Below, piece after piece: positions 13,808 to 33,018 of a stretch of DNA of 36,769 bases. Origin of the DNA: Sedimenticola thiotaurini (GTDB lineage: Bacteria; Pseudomonadota; Gammaproteobacteria; Chromatiales; Chromatiaceae). Location of the stretch: NCBI GenBank assembly GCA_011051715.1, contig DRKP01000082.1, forward strand, positions 1-36,769, read 5' to 3'. Under the pieces are notes generated by a model. That model searched no databases and was not told the DNA's origin. It was given only the letters and a program-made list of their open reading frames with translations. Position 1 is the first letter of the stretch; every line of letters starts with the position of its first letter. Made by a program: the position numbers and the translations under genes.

Positions 13808-14717
<910 letters not shown>

Positions 14718-14721
<4 letters not shown>

Positions 14722-15083
14722 GGTTCGATCGTACTCCGTAATTTCTTATACAGTCCCGTCATCAGGCGGCTGGTCTGATCCAGGAGATTGCTCAATTGCT
14801 GATTCGGTGGCATCAGGCCTACCCTGATAGCAATCTCCTGCTGGGTGTCGAGTTCACTGAGAGAACCCCTGGCCATGCTGAGAAAGTTCAACAGCTCTTT
14901 ACGGCTGCTGCGTGCAGCCCCTTCGGCAATATTGCTGGGAATGGATACAGCCGATCTTCGCATTTGCGACACCAAACCAAATAATTCGTGCCGGGGGAAG
15001 TTTTCTGTCGTCCTGTAGATTTCTTCCACGAGATCCATCGCGCTCTTCCAGGCTTCCAGTTGTGCATGTGGCTTCCTTTCCAT
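14718..15083 (-). CDS. Four-helix-bundle protein (S23 rRNA-intervening-sequence / Avd-like family)
   Basis: This encodes 121 residues from the ATG at 15083, chosen because GGAGG lies 5 bp upstream; the ATG at 15095 overlaps that site. The sequence has family landmarks: [40 protein letters not shown] and [14 protein letters not shown]. Members are small helical bundles found either inside 23S rRNA intervening sequences or scattered singly near sugar-nucleotide genes; function is unknown, although the related Avd protein binds nucleic acid. Here it interrupts the rmlB-rmlA junction and is flanked by inverted copies of the heptamer repeat (15121-15147 and 14681-14720). Its end overlaps the rmlA start (ATGA). 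It has nothing obvious to do with rhamnose synthesis and looks like an inserted passenger. Confidence 0.85.
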
Positions 15084-15120
15084 AATAACCTCCATTCCAT
15101 AATAAAATCGTTCCCTCCCT

Positions 15121-15147
15121 ACTCCTCACTCCTCACCCCTCACTCAA
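15121..15147. repeat. Heptamer repeat, copy 2 (CTCACTC/CTCACCC units)
   Basis: ACTCCTCACTCCTCACCCCT followed by CACTCAA. It is an inverted counterpart of copy 1. The rmlB stop codon (15133-15135) and its last three sense codons lie inside it, so the repeat has replaced the native rmlB terminus. Confidence 0.8.
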
Positions 15148-16215
15148 CACCCCCAGCCGCTCCCTCCTATAGCTTCCATCCTGCACCCGGCGGCACCAGT
15201 TGAGGTTGTCCAGGTACCACTGCACCGTCTTGCGCATGCCGGTGTCGAAGGTCTCTTCCGGGACCCAGCCCAGCTCCTGCTCGATCCTGTCGGCGTCGAT
15301 GGCGTAGCGCCTGTCGTGACCGGGACGGTCGGTGACATGGGTGATCAGCTGCTCATAGCGGTCGATGCCGGCGTGGGGGGAGGGGGCCAGCTGGTCCAGG
15401 GTGGCGCAGAGGGTCTTCACCACCTCCAGGTTGGTCTTCTCGTTGTGGCCGCCGATGTTGTAGGTCCGTCCCGGCGTGCCTTCGGTCAACACCTTCCACA
15501 GGGCGCGAACGTGGTCGTCGACGTAGAGCCAGTCGCGGATCTGGTCACCCTTGCCGTAGATGGGCAGCGGCTTGCCATCGAGGGCGTTGAGGATGACCAG
15601 GGGGATCAGCTTCTCCGGGAACTGGTAGGGACCGTAGTTGTTGGAGCAGTTGGTGATCAGGGTCGGCAGGCCATAGGTCTCGTGCCACGCCCGGACCAGG
15701 TGGTCGGAGGAGGCCTTGCTGGCGGAGTAGGGGGAGTTGGGCTTGTAGGGGTCCTCCTCCCGGAACAGGCCGGTCGGACCCAGGCTGCCGTAGACCTCGT
15801 CGGTGGAGACGTGATGGAAGCGGAAATCACGTTTGCCCTCGTCGTCGAGTCCGTTCCAGTAGTGGCGCGCCGCCTCCAGCAGGGTATAGACGCCGACGAT
15901 GTTGGTCTGGATGAAGGTGGAGGGGCCATCGATGGAGCGGTCCACGTGGGATTCGGCGGCCAGGTGCAGGATGGCGTCGGGGCGGTACTGCTGGAACAGC
16001 CGCCGGACCTCGGTTTCGTCACAGACGTCCACCTGTTCGAACCGGTAGTTGGGGTGGTCGGCCACCGCCTCCAGCGATTCCAGGTTGCCGGCGTAGGTGA
16101 GTTTGTCCACGTTGACCAGGGTCAGATCGTGGTGCTCGATCAGGTAACGGATCACGGCGGAGCCGATGAAGCCGGCGCCACCGGTGACCAGCAGGGTCTT
16201 GGGATGGAGGGTCAT
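15133..16215 (-). CDS. rmlB: dTDP-glucose 4,6-dehydratase
   Basis: This 360-residue extended short-chain dehydrogenase converts dTDP-glucose to dTDP-4-keto-6-deoxyglucose. The NAD-binding TGGAGFIG is at 11-18, the catalytic STDEVYG near 137-143 and the Y163-x3-K167 pair in SPYSASK. Length is normal. The C-terminal residues SEG and the stop are encoded by the heptamer repeat; this is beyond the catalytic core and should be harmless. It is first of the rml genes in transcription order, after a 117-bp gap behind the sulfurylase/APS kinase fusion. Confidence 0.96.
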
Positions 16216-18068: not shown

Positions 18069-18094
18069 CACCCCTCACTCCTCACTCCCTATCC
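18069..18094. repeat. Heptamer repeat, copy 3
   Basis: ACACCCCTCACTCCTCACTC followed by CCTATC, in the same orientation as copy 2. It fills the space before the sulfurylase/APS kinase gene and contains the uppP stop (18089-18091). There is no inverted partner or small gene next to it, so it may be a scar or an empty site. Confidence 0.7.
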
Positions 18095-18892: not shown

Positions 18893-18923
18893 TCAACCAC
18901 AGAGAACACAGAGGGCACAGAGG
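18893..18923 (+). repeat. CACAGAG-type dispersed repeat, left arm of cassette
   Basis: TCAACCACAGAGAACACAGA then GGGCACAGAGG; period of about 9 bp (CACAGAGRA, CACAGAGGG). Related copies are at 20548, 21863, 23181 and 32861-33018. Confidence 0.8.
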
Positions 18924-19021
18924 GTTGGATTGCTTTCTGGAACTGTGTTTGTTTTTTGAATCGTGTTTGTAATCTGCATGATATGTTGTCTTCCGGGATT
19001 CGTGTTCGGTCAGTAAAAAAC

Positions 19022-19393
19022 CTATAGGACGAATCTCCTCACTCCCCTGACCAGTCGGTCTACATTGAAATTGATGAGAAGGCCGGTTCTTTTCCTCGAA
19101 AGTTTCATGTAAGTGAGTAGTTGCGCCTCGTGAACTTTGGTCAATGCGTCCACTGCTTTCAGTTCCAGAATCAAGGAATCATTGACGAGTATGTCGATTC
19201 GGTAGCCACAATCCAGTTCGATATCACGATAGGTGATAGGTACGGGTACCTGGGCCCGGCACTGTATGCCTTTCTTCTGTAGCTCGTAGAACAGGCATTT
19301 TTCGTACGCTGATTCAAGCAGGCCTGGCCTCAAGGCTCGATGGACGTCTATCGCGCATCCAATAACCGCATGTGCCAATACATCCCTCTCCAT
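19022..19393 (-). CDS. GxxExxY family protein (PD-(D/E)XK nuclease-like)
   Basis: 123 residues. The name-giving motif is G24-L-L-E27-S-A-Y30. A nuclease-like core follows: D67 in YRIDILV, then E77-L-K79 in LILELKA, the spacing of a PD-(D/E)XK active site. The family is widespread in environmental genomes, usually as single genes of unknown function. AGGGAGG lies 7 bp before the ATG. It sits between galE and uppP, is lower in GC than both, and is bracketed by inverted CACAGAG repeats, so it looks like a passenger rather than an EPS gene. A nicking or repair role in spreading the flanking repeats is possible but speculative. Confidence 0.88.
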   Translation of the reverse strand: MERDVLAHAVIGCAIDVHRALRPGLLESAYEKCLFYELQKKGIQCRAQVPVPITYRDIELDCGYRIDILVNDSLILELKAVDALTKVHEAQLLTYMKLSRKRTGLLINFNVDRLVRGVRRFVL

Positions 19394-19442
19394 ATCTGAT
19401 CCTCCCTGATCATGAATATGCTTACAGAAGCAGTAGCTGTTT

Positions 19443-19463
19443 CTCTGTGCCCTCTGTGGTTGA
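19443..19463 (-). repeat. CACAGAG-type dispersed repeat, right arm of cassette
   Basis: CTCTGTGCCCTCTGTGGTTG plus a final A, the reverse complement of the left arm consensus. It ends 15 bp before the galE stop codon. Confidence 0.8.
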
Positions 19464-20464: not shown

Positions 20465-20941
20465 CCTCTCTCCCTGCCGCTGCCGGCGGAAAACAGCTTC
20501 CTGTTCGGCCCAGAGTCCGGCTGTATTTCGATCATCTGCTGCCTTGATTCACCACAGAGGTCACGGCGTCCACAGAGATTCCCGGAATGGAACCGTGGAG
20601 GCCATGAAGCGGTCTCCGCAGTACAAGCCCCTGATCCAGCGGGCGGGGGCATCCGGACGACCCTCTCGTGCCCGTCTATGCCTCTGGAGGGGTGCCCTGA
20701 CGTGCTCGTTCCCTTTGTATACCCCGGGTGTTCTATGTTCGGTTTCCTCGTTCTACGGCTCCCGTGCGCGGCCGATTATCCCGGAAAACGGCCATCGGTG
20801 CGAACGGGAATCCCGGTTCCCTCCGGGGCGAATGCGGAGGCGCCGTCGCACCGCGATTTCCCGAGTGCCCCTGTGCGGCCCGGCGGCGCCCCTGCATTGA
20901 TAGTTGGCGGTCGCCGGGGGGATTTGTTGAGCCGCAGCGGT
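20465..20941. other. Non-coding spacer between the phosphopantetheinyl transferase and galE
   Basis: This 477-bp stretch has no convincing gene. Open frames here have no ribosome-binding site and no recognisable protein. It carries a degenerate CACAGAG repeat (20548-20581: TTCACCACAGAGG, then TCCACAGAGATTC). The galE promoter should lie near its left end, but I see no clear match. Confidence 0.6.
20548..20581 (+). repeat. Degenerate CACAGAG-type repeat
   Basis: Two CCACAGAG blocks separated by GTCACGGCGT. It looks like a decayed single copy of the family seen intact at 18893 and 23181. Confidence 0.6.
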
Positions 20942-21862: not shown

Positions 21863-21893
21863 AATCTCTGTGGTCTCTGTGATCTCTGTGGTT
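21863..21893 (-). repeat. CACAGAG-type dispersed repeat, inverted orientation
   Basis: AATCTCTGTGGTCTCTGTGA then TCTCTGTGGTT: three CTCTGTG units, inverse of the 18893 copy. Confidence 0.75.
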
Positions 21894-23180: not shown

Positions 23181-23214
23181 ATCAACCACAGAGGACACAG
23201 AGGGCACAGAGGGG
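23181..23214 (+). repeat. CACAGAG-type dispersed repeat
   Basis: ATCAACCACAGAGGACACAG then AGGGCACAGAGGGG: the best-preserved copy in the window, period 9 bp. Confidence 0.8.
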
Positions 23215-23290: not shown

Positions 23291-23326
23291 CGACGGAGTA
23301 ACGATAATGACGGAGAAACAATTTCC

Positions 23327-23710
23327 CACTCGCAAAGGCGCAGAGGACGCGAAGATCACGAAGGATCCTGATTCGCAGGGACCAATGCGATCGAAGGGTG
23401 AATACACTGCTTGGCGCTCTTAGCGGCCTTGGCGAGATTAACAGTTTCTCACTCGCAAAGTCGCAGAGGACGCGAAGATCACAAAGGATCCTGATTCGCA
23501 GTGACCAATCCGATCGAAGGATGAATAAAACGCCTGGCGCTATTCGCGGCCTTGGCGTCTTGGCGAGAGTAACAATTATCCACTCGCAAAGGCGCCAAGG
23601 ACGCAAAGATCGCAAAGTATCATTGATTCGCAGCGGCCAATGCGATCGAAGGGGGAATGAACCTCTTGGCGCTCTTCGCGGCCCTGGCGCCTTGGCGAGA
23701 TTAACAGTTA
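23327..23710. repeat. Three tandem copies of a unit of about 127 bp with inverted ends
   Basis: Units begin CACTCGCAAAG at 23327, 23450 and 23581, so lengths are 123, 131 and about 127-130 bp. Each has a left end CTCGCAAAGGCGC (one base differs in copy 2), a central block with GATTCGCAG, CCAATGCGATCGAAGG (CCAATCCGATCGAAGG in copy 2), and a right end CCTTGGCGAGA or a close variant. The left end and the reverse complement of GCGCCTTGGCGAG match at 12 of 13 positions, so each unit can fold into a long hairpin. A fragment recurs at 13123. It ends 35 bp before the stop of the CorC-type gene. Confidence 0.85.
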
Positions 23711-23744
23711 CCCACGATCCCCGCCCGGACTGGCCCGGCCGCGA

Positions 23745-32857: not shown

Positions 32858-33018
32858 CCCAGAGGGCACAGAGACCATCGATGGTTTGCCTCCCGATCCA
32901 TACGCCGGTCTGCCGGCGTACCTGCAGTGGCACATACTCATCCAACCCAGGCGAATGAACCCGGCGCAGCAGGAGCAGTGATCGGGATCTCTGTGCCCTC
33001 TGTGCTCTCTGTGGTGAA
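32858..33018. repeat. Inverted CACAGAG repeats between fliH and fliI
   Basis: AGAGGGCACAGAGA (32861-32874) is the exact inverse of TCTCTGTGCCCTCT (32988-33001); the right arm continues GTGCTCTCTGTGGTGAA to 33018. The 113-bp centre has no gene. The insert accounts for the 193-bp gap in an otherwise tight operon. It could fold into a stem in the mRNA, and the right arm ends 21 bp before the fliI ATG. Confidence 0.75.

Follow-up and report, generated by a model that had tools for sequence, protein, structure and literature searches.

Inverted tandem-repeat arrays flank GxxExxY nuclease-like genes and vary with the protein in an arrangement resembling REPtrons

GxxExxY genes from many bacterial phyla and two archaea lie between inverted arrays of short tandem repeats, and the type of repeat follows the encoded protein. 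Our main reading, to which we assign a probability of roughly 0.6, is that GxxExxY serves as the cognate nuclease for a population of short inverted array pairs, as a non-homologous analogue of the REPtrons, in which a nuclease gene that is single-copy, repeat-flanked, and non-mobile co-evolves with dispersed inverted doublets (PMC3116915, PMC8266576). Gene and repeats are probably a widespread paired system of a selfish kind. The open-access literature contains no description of this gene–repeat pairing that we could find, with an earlier account elsewhere being possible. GxxExxY is named there in two papers, incidentally in one of them, and of 49 papers matching the repeat sequences none among the 30 listed concerned bacterial repeats.

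The window, by which we mean the whole 36,769-nucleotide stretch analysed, corresponds to contig C82 in a draft gammaproteobacterial genome of 3.39 Mb. Within it, the gap between galE and uppP is filled by a GxxExxY gene and inverted CACAGAG arrays with a 9-bp period (Table 1). The whole element runs from 18893 to 19463, with outer ends TCAACC...GGTTGA; in minus-strand direction, galE terminates 14 bp ahead of it and uppP begins 9 bp beyond it. Repeat units lie at 18898, 18907, and 18916 (+) on the left and at 19443 and 19452 (-) on the right. The first-pass annotation, made from the letters alone, had described this location and these flanks correctly to the base, and the D67 and E77-x-K79 that it read in the gene are present with exactly that numbering. 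It was likewise right that the region is low in GC (47% versus 64% across the window, which places it among the 0.5% of 571-bp windows with the least GC) and that a transposase is missing, scans of 28 window ORFs with Pfam or NCBIfam having identified none.

Table 1. Array elements and the GxxExxY gene in the window
Feature	Position	Strand	Basis
Left inverted array: TCAACC end and three CACAGAG units, 9-bp period	18893..18924	+	
GxxExxY nuclease gene (predicted), 123 aa, same direction as galE and uppP	19022..19393	-	TIGR04256, PF13366, AF2
Right inverted array: two CACAGAG units and GGTTGA end	19443..19463	-	
Solitary remnant: pair of CACAGAG units at 18-bp spacing	20553..20577	+	
Solitary three-unit CACAGAG array without gene	21866..21890	-	
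Solitary three-unit CACAGAG array without gene	23187..23213	+	
Tandem triplet of 123-bp units carrying inverted CGCAAAG/CGCGAAG arrays, a second repeat type	23313..23715	.	
Gene-less inverted array pair in the fliH–fliI gap, arms 32860-32873 and 32989-33013	32860..33013	.	

The same repeat had been reported without the gene at 20548, 21863, 23181, and 32858-33018, and copies are indeed found at all four places, with CACAGAG units lying at 20553 and 20571, at 21866-21890 (-), at 23187-23211, and at 32867 (+) and 32989-33013 (-). CACAGAG has 17 matches in the window versus 5.2 expected, a count reached by 0 of 100 shuffles, and CACAGAGnnCACAGAG, with one mismatch allowed, occurs 113 times in the whole genome versus once for a reversed control. 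Adjacent array pairs in this genome mostly face inward (21 in +- orientation, 8 in -+, 10 in ++, and 4 in --). The loops of its gene-less pairs range from 5 to 230 bp and are mutually unrelated except in tandem clusters. For the second repeat type of Table 1, a matching gene was not found in this genome.

The GxxExxY product matches TIGR04256 with 151 bits (cut-off 35) and PF13366 with 144 bits (cut-off 22), and G24, E27, and Y30 are present. Its AlphaFold (AF2) model has a mean pLDDT of 96 and finds Cas4 SSO0001 as its best structural match (Z of 10.0 over 100 residues), with lambda exonuclease as a Foldseek match; searching solved structures by sequence gave no relative. Nearly all of the 136 proteins compared retain D67, E77, K79, Q91, and Y95, and the median dN/dS is 0.087. 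Judged from these alignments, the putative catalytic residues are conserved under purifying selection, and the modelled fold makes GxxExxY a predicted nuclease of the Cas4/lambda-exonuclease type that is intact and conserved. The likeness to Cas4/RecB-family PD-(D/E)XK enzymes extends to the fold and to the D...E-x-K...Q-xxx-Y order, whereas GxxExxY differs in its length of only 123 aa, its lack of cas genes and of conserved Fe–S cysteines (no conserved cysteine column for a 4Fe-4S cluster in 24 aligned relatives), and its GxxExxY motif. D67 is lost in only two of the 136 proteins, both from one lineage and both also without arrays (L080 and L081, in G388 and G325). In this pair, the GxxExxY homologue lies inside a long ORF of a trp operon, and we regard the two as a candidate domesticated, inactive lineage.

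We surveyed 397 proteobacterial genomes, 44 of which contain TIGR04256, together with 80 further GxxExxY loci from many bacterial phyla and two archaea; many of the census genomes are drafts. The left flank of each gene was compared with the reverse-complemented right flank, and a best local match above the 99% shuffle level was counted as significant. By this measure, matching inverted flanks occur at 103/129 GxxExxY loci versus 3/115 control window pairs placed 700–900 bp away, and 26 of the 129 genes lack a significant match, so that the census of flanking repeats proposed in the first-pass annotation came out strongly positive. Inward-facing tandem units lie within 100 bp of the gene at 58% of loci upstream (left) and 64% downstream (right), falling to about 1% beyond 300 bp, percentages that are indicative because the 80 further loci were picked for resembling the query and because f48, one proteobacterial family, contributes more than its share. 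Throughout, the arrays around the gene consist of inverted 7-mers at an 8–10-bp period. The unit varies by locus (CACAGAG, CGCAGAG, CGCAAAG, CACGAAG, CACGGAG, ACGCAGAT, CACGAAT, CACGGAA, and CACGGAC), yet within a locus the left and right arms are of the same type, across many phyla and in the two archaea. By mechanical ORF calls, both neighbours lie on the same strand as the gene in 75 cases versus both on the opposite strand in 14, a placement that fits GxxExxY expression by read-through.

Repeat type and protein identity are correlated (Mantel r of 0.34, 0/2000 permutations), as they are in the cross-phylum set (r of 0.14, 0/2000 permutations). On the protein tree, the distinction between G-tailed and non-G-tailed units requires two changes only, one of them inside f48, and G-ending and non-G-ending units coexist in the same genomes. 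Where a genome has several genes, the repeat of each copy resembles that of the closest protein relative elsewhere, taken from a different site if one was found, more than the genome-mate's repeat in 17 cases versus 3 (p of 0.003), which separates protein–repeat coupling from genome ancestry and largely from site ancestry. In one such case, f48 genes flanked by CACGAAG arrays pair with a gene from a Planctomycete. The sequences compared indicate that the repeat goes with the protein clade rather than with the genome or the site.

The dispersed gene-less repeats also accompany the gene. Among the 397 proteobacterial genomes, the terminal signature ACCRCRRAGnnCRCRRAG is enriched in gene-bearing genomes (Fisher p of 3e-17), and within one family the median array count is 20.5 with the gene versus 0 without it (p of 7e-5). 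T-tailed dispersed repeats have a median of 46 where a T-tailed gene is present versus 1 (p of 2.5e-5). Gene-bearing genomes contain tens to hundreds of dispersed gene-less inverted pairs of the matching type. In an unrelated genome (G361), near-identical arms surround unrelated loops, which marks the arms as the part that is maintained. At one array pair of the same genome (L241, G361:C1:2150110-2153356), a transposase-like insertion, IS630-like by eye, separates arms that otherwise stand about 100–200 bp apart. Four genomes (G005, G108, G147, and G153) have 9–25 terminal array signatures without a detected GxxExxY gene, possibly owing to gene loss or draft gaps.

The trpD–trpC gap of f48 species illustrates how such elements vary at a single site. 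It holds a gene-bearing element, a gene-less hairpin, or nothing, in which case trpD and trpC overlap as ATGA, and the three states are intermixed on the trpC tree. Close f48 relatives have hairpins that differ in unit and loop at the same position, directly after the trpD stop codon. Both arms of these hairpins change together, suggesting whole-element replacement or repeated insertion. In the hairpin at L219 and L229 (G409 and G401), CACAGAG units on the left face CACGAAG units on the right, an asymmetry that recombination between two repeat types could have produced. The comparison of occupied and empty sites suggested by the first-pass annotation recovered gene-bearing, gene-less, and empty states at trpD–trpC; target duplications did not appear, there being no consistent direct repeat beyond chance at 56 element boundaries. 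Beyond (A)ACC ends that adjoin stop codons in some cases, these boundaries share no fixed target motif, and no fresh insertion was found between close genome pairs. We infer the movement of the elements from these distributions.

In the mechanism that we propose, a GxxExxY dimer or oligomer would bind the arrays as DNA and cut or nick them at their outer (A)ACC termini, with the resulting break then being repaired from, or transferred to, another array copy. In this way, intergenic sites directly following stop codons would receive new array pairs or have one pair replaced by another. GxxExxY itself would seldom move, being kept usually as one copy per type, co-directionally within operons, and expressed by read-through. 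Weighing against this reading are the 26 genes without a significant flank match, the genomes that have arrays but no detected gene, the lack of target duplications and of a fixed target motif, and the gene-less copies outside operons in the window's genome. The likeness to REPtrons and REPIN–RAYT systems lies in the single chromosomal nuclease gene per type, which is repeat-flanked, housekeeping-like, and rare on plasmids, in the many dispersed gene-less inverted doublets, and in the co-evolution of repeat and protein. Unlike RAYTs, which are HUH tyrosine transposases, GxxExxY is of the Cas4-like PD-(D/E)XK type; its repeats are tandem 7-mers at an 8–10-bp period instead of GTAG-tagged palindromes, and its genes sit between operon genes. 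The system is not a REPtron by membership because its nuclease and its repeats are of other kinds: the GxxExxY gene matches PF13366 only and not the HUH Y1 transposase family (PF01797), and the unit is a non-palindromic tandem 7-mer with no GTAG-type REP palindrome. The sole Y1_Tnp gene in the window's genome has an internal stop and lies on contig C68, where no arrays are listed. If our reading holds, the widespread GxxExxY family gains a testable role, the dispersed 9-bp-period repeats of bacterial and archaeal phyla are explained, and the REPtron problem, how a domesticated nuclease keeps a short-repeat population, has a second solution that is not homologous to the first. Specificity should be readable by swapping protein and repeat types, since sequence already pairs them.

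The first-pass annotation had cast the gene as the active partner and the other repeats as its non-autonomous copies. The first part is strongly supported by the flank census, the covariation of repeat and protein, and the matching dispersed pairs. If GxxExxY were the transposase of an autonomous transposon, with the arrays as its terminal repeats and the gene-less copies as MITEs that it moves, the inverted termini, the dispersed gene-less copies, and the patchy presence at one site would all be accounted for, and inverted ends with dispersed non-autonomous copies are indeed shared with the MITEs of DDE transposons. We nevertheless consider this unlikely. No two gene copies of a single genome exceed 68% identity or are recent duplicates, and GxxExxY matches occur in only 8/72,556 plasmids and 0/50,697 phages. 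There is also no DDE transposase and no shared interior; the missing target duplication and the loops, unrelated to the gene element as well as to each other, count against a DDE transposon with MITEs. The second part needs revision in view of the same loops: the gene-less copies do not derive from the gene element by internal deletion, an origin that we rejected. A REPIN/RAYT arrangement fits better than a transposon plus MITEs. An improbability of the same order attaches to an element acting at the RNA level, whose arrays, with the gene forming the loop, would fold in operon mRNA and act in its processing or regulation. The co-directional placement in operons and the complementary arms speak for such an element; against it, the nuclease fold resembles that of DNA nucleases, gene-less copies in the window's genome lie beyond operons, also between divergent and convergent genes, and arm mismatches show no G–U-compatible excess on the sense strand (176 versus 172). 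The lack of a G–U bias speaks against selection for a hairpin in the sense-strand RNA, while single-stranded DNA or a cruciform remains compatible with it.

Still less probable, in our view, is homing, in which GxxExxY would cut gene-less array pairs as its targets and be copied in by repair. This would suit a Cas4/restriction-like nuclease fold and the finding of gene-bearing and gene-less elements at the same trpD–trpC position, yet homing should fill many copies, and one gene stands alongside tens to hundreds of gene-less pairs. We give least weight to a passive association, in which the arrays are insertion-prone extragenic sequences and GxxExxY is autoregulated by them or merely tolerated within them: some arrays do occur without a gene, but the tight symmetric flanking across phyla and a repeat type that tracks the protein rather than the genome speak against it.

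A small ORF in an inverted-repeat loop is also known from the intervening sequences of 23S rRNA that carry the S23 ORF (PF05635; PMC4990558), and a PF05635 gene with such arms occurs in the same window. GxxExxY differs from these in lying in protein operons (galE–uppP), in being a predicted nuclease rather than a helical bundle, and in having arms without a sign of RNA-level pairing constraint. The second cassette (14681-15153), between rfbB and rfbA, holds a four-helix-bundle gene (23S_rRNA_IVP, PF05635/TIGR02436; 14718-15095, -) between inverted GTGAGGA arrays with a 7-bp period. TIGR02436 had been scanned as an intended negative control for flanking arrays, and inverted flanks, with various 7-bp-period units, were found at 23/30 of its loci versus 0/29 controls. 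Because TIGR02436 shows the architecture with 7-bp units, inverted arrays may represent a class rather than one family. More tentatively, at slightly less than even odds in our estimation, short inverted tandem-array elements would form a general class in which unrelated small proteins each manage cognate, co-evolving repeats by a mechanism as yet undescribed. A short solitary array with a 7-bp period (CACTCCT, 18069-18088), of the type of the four-helix cassette arms, lies just downstream of uppP.
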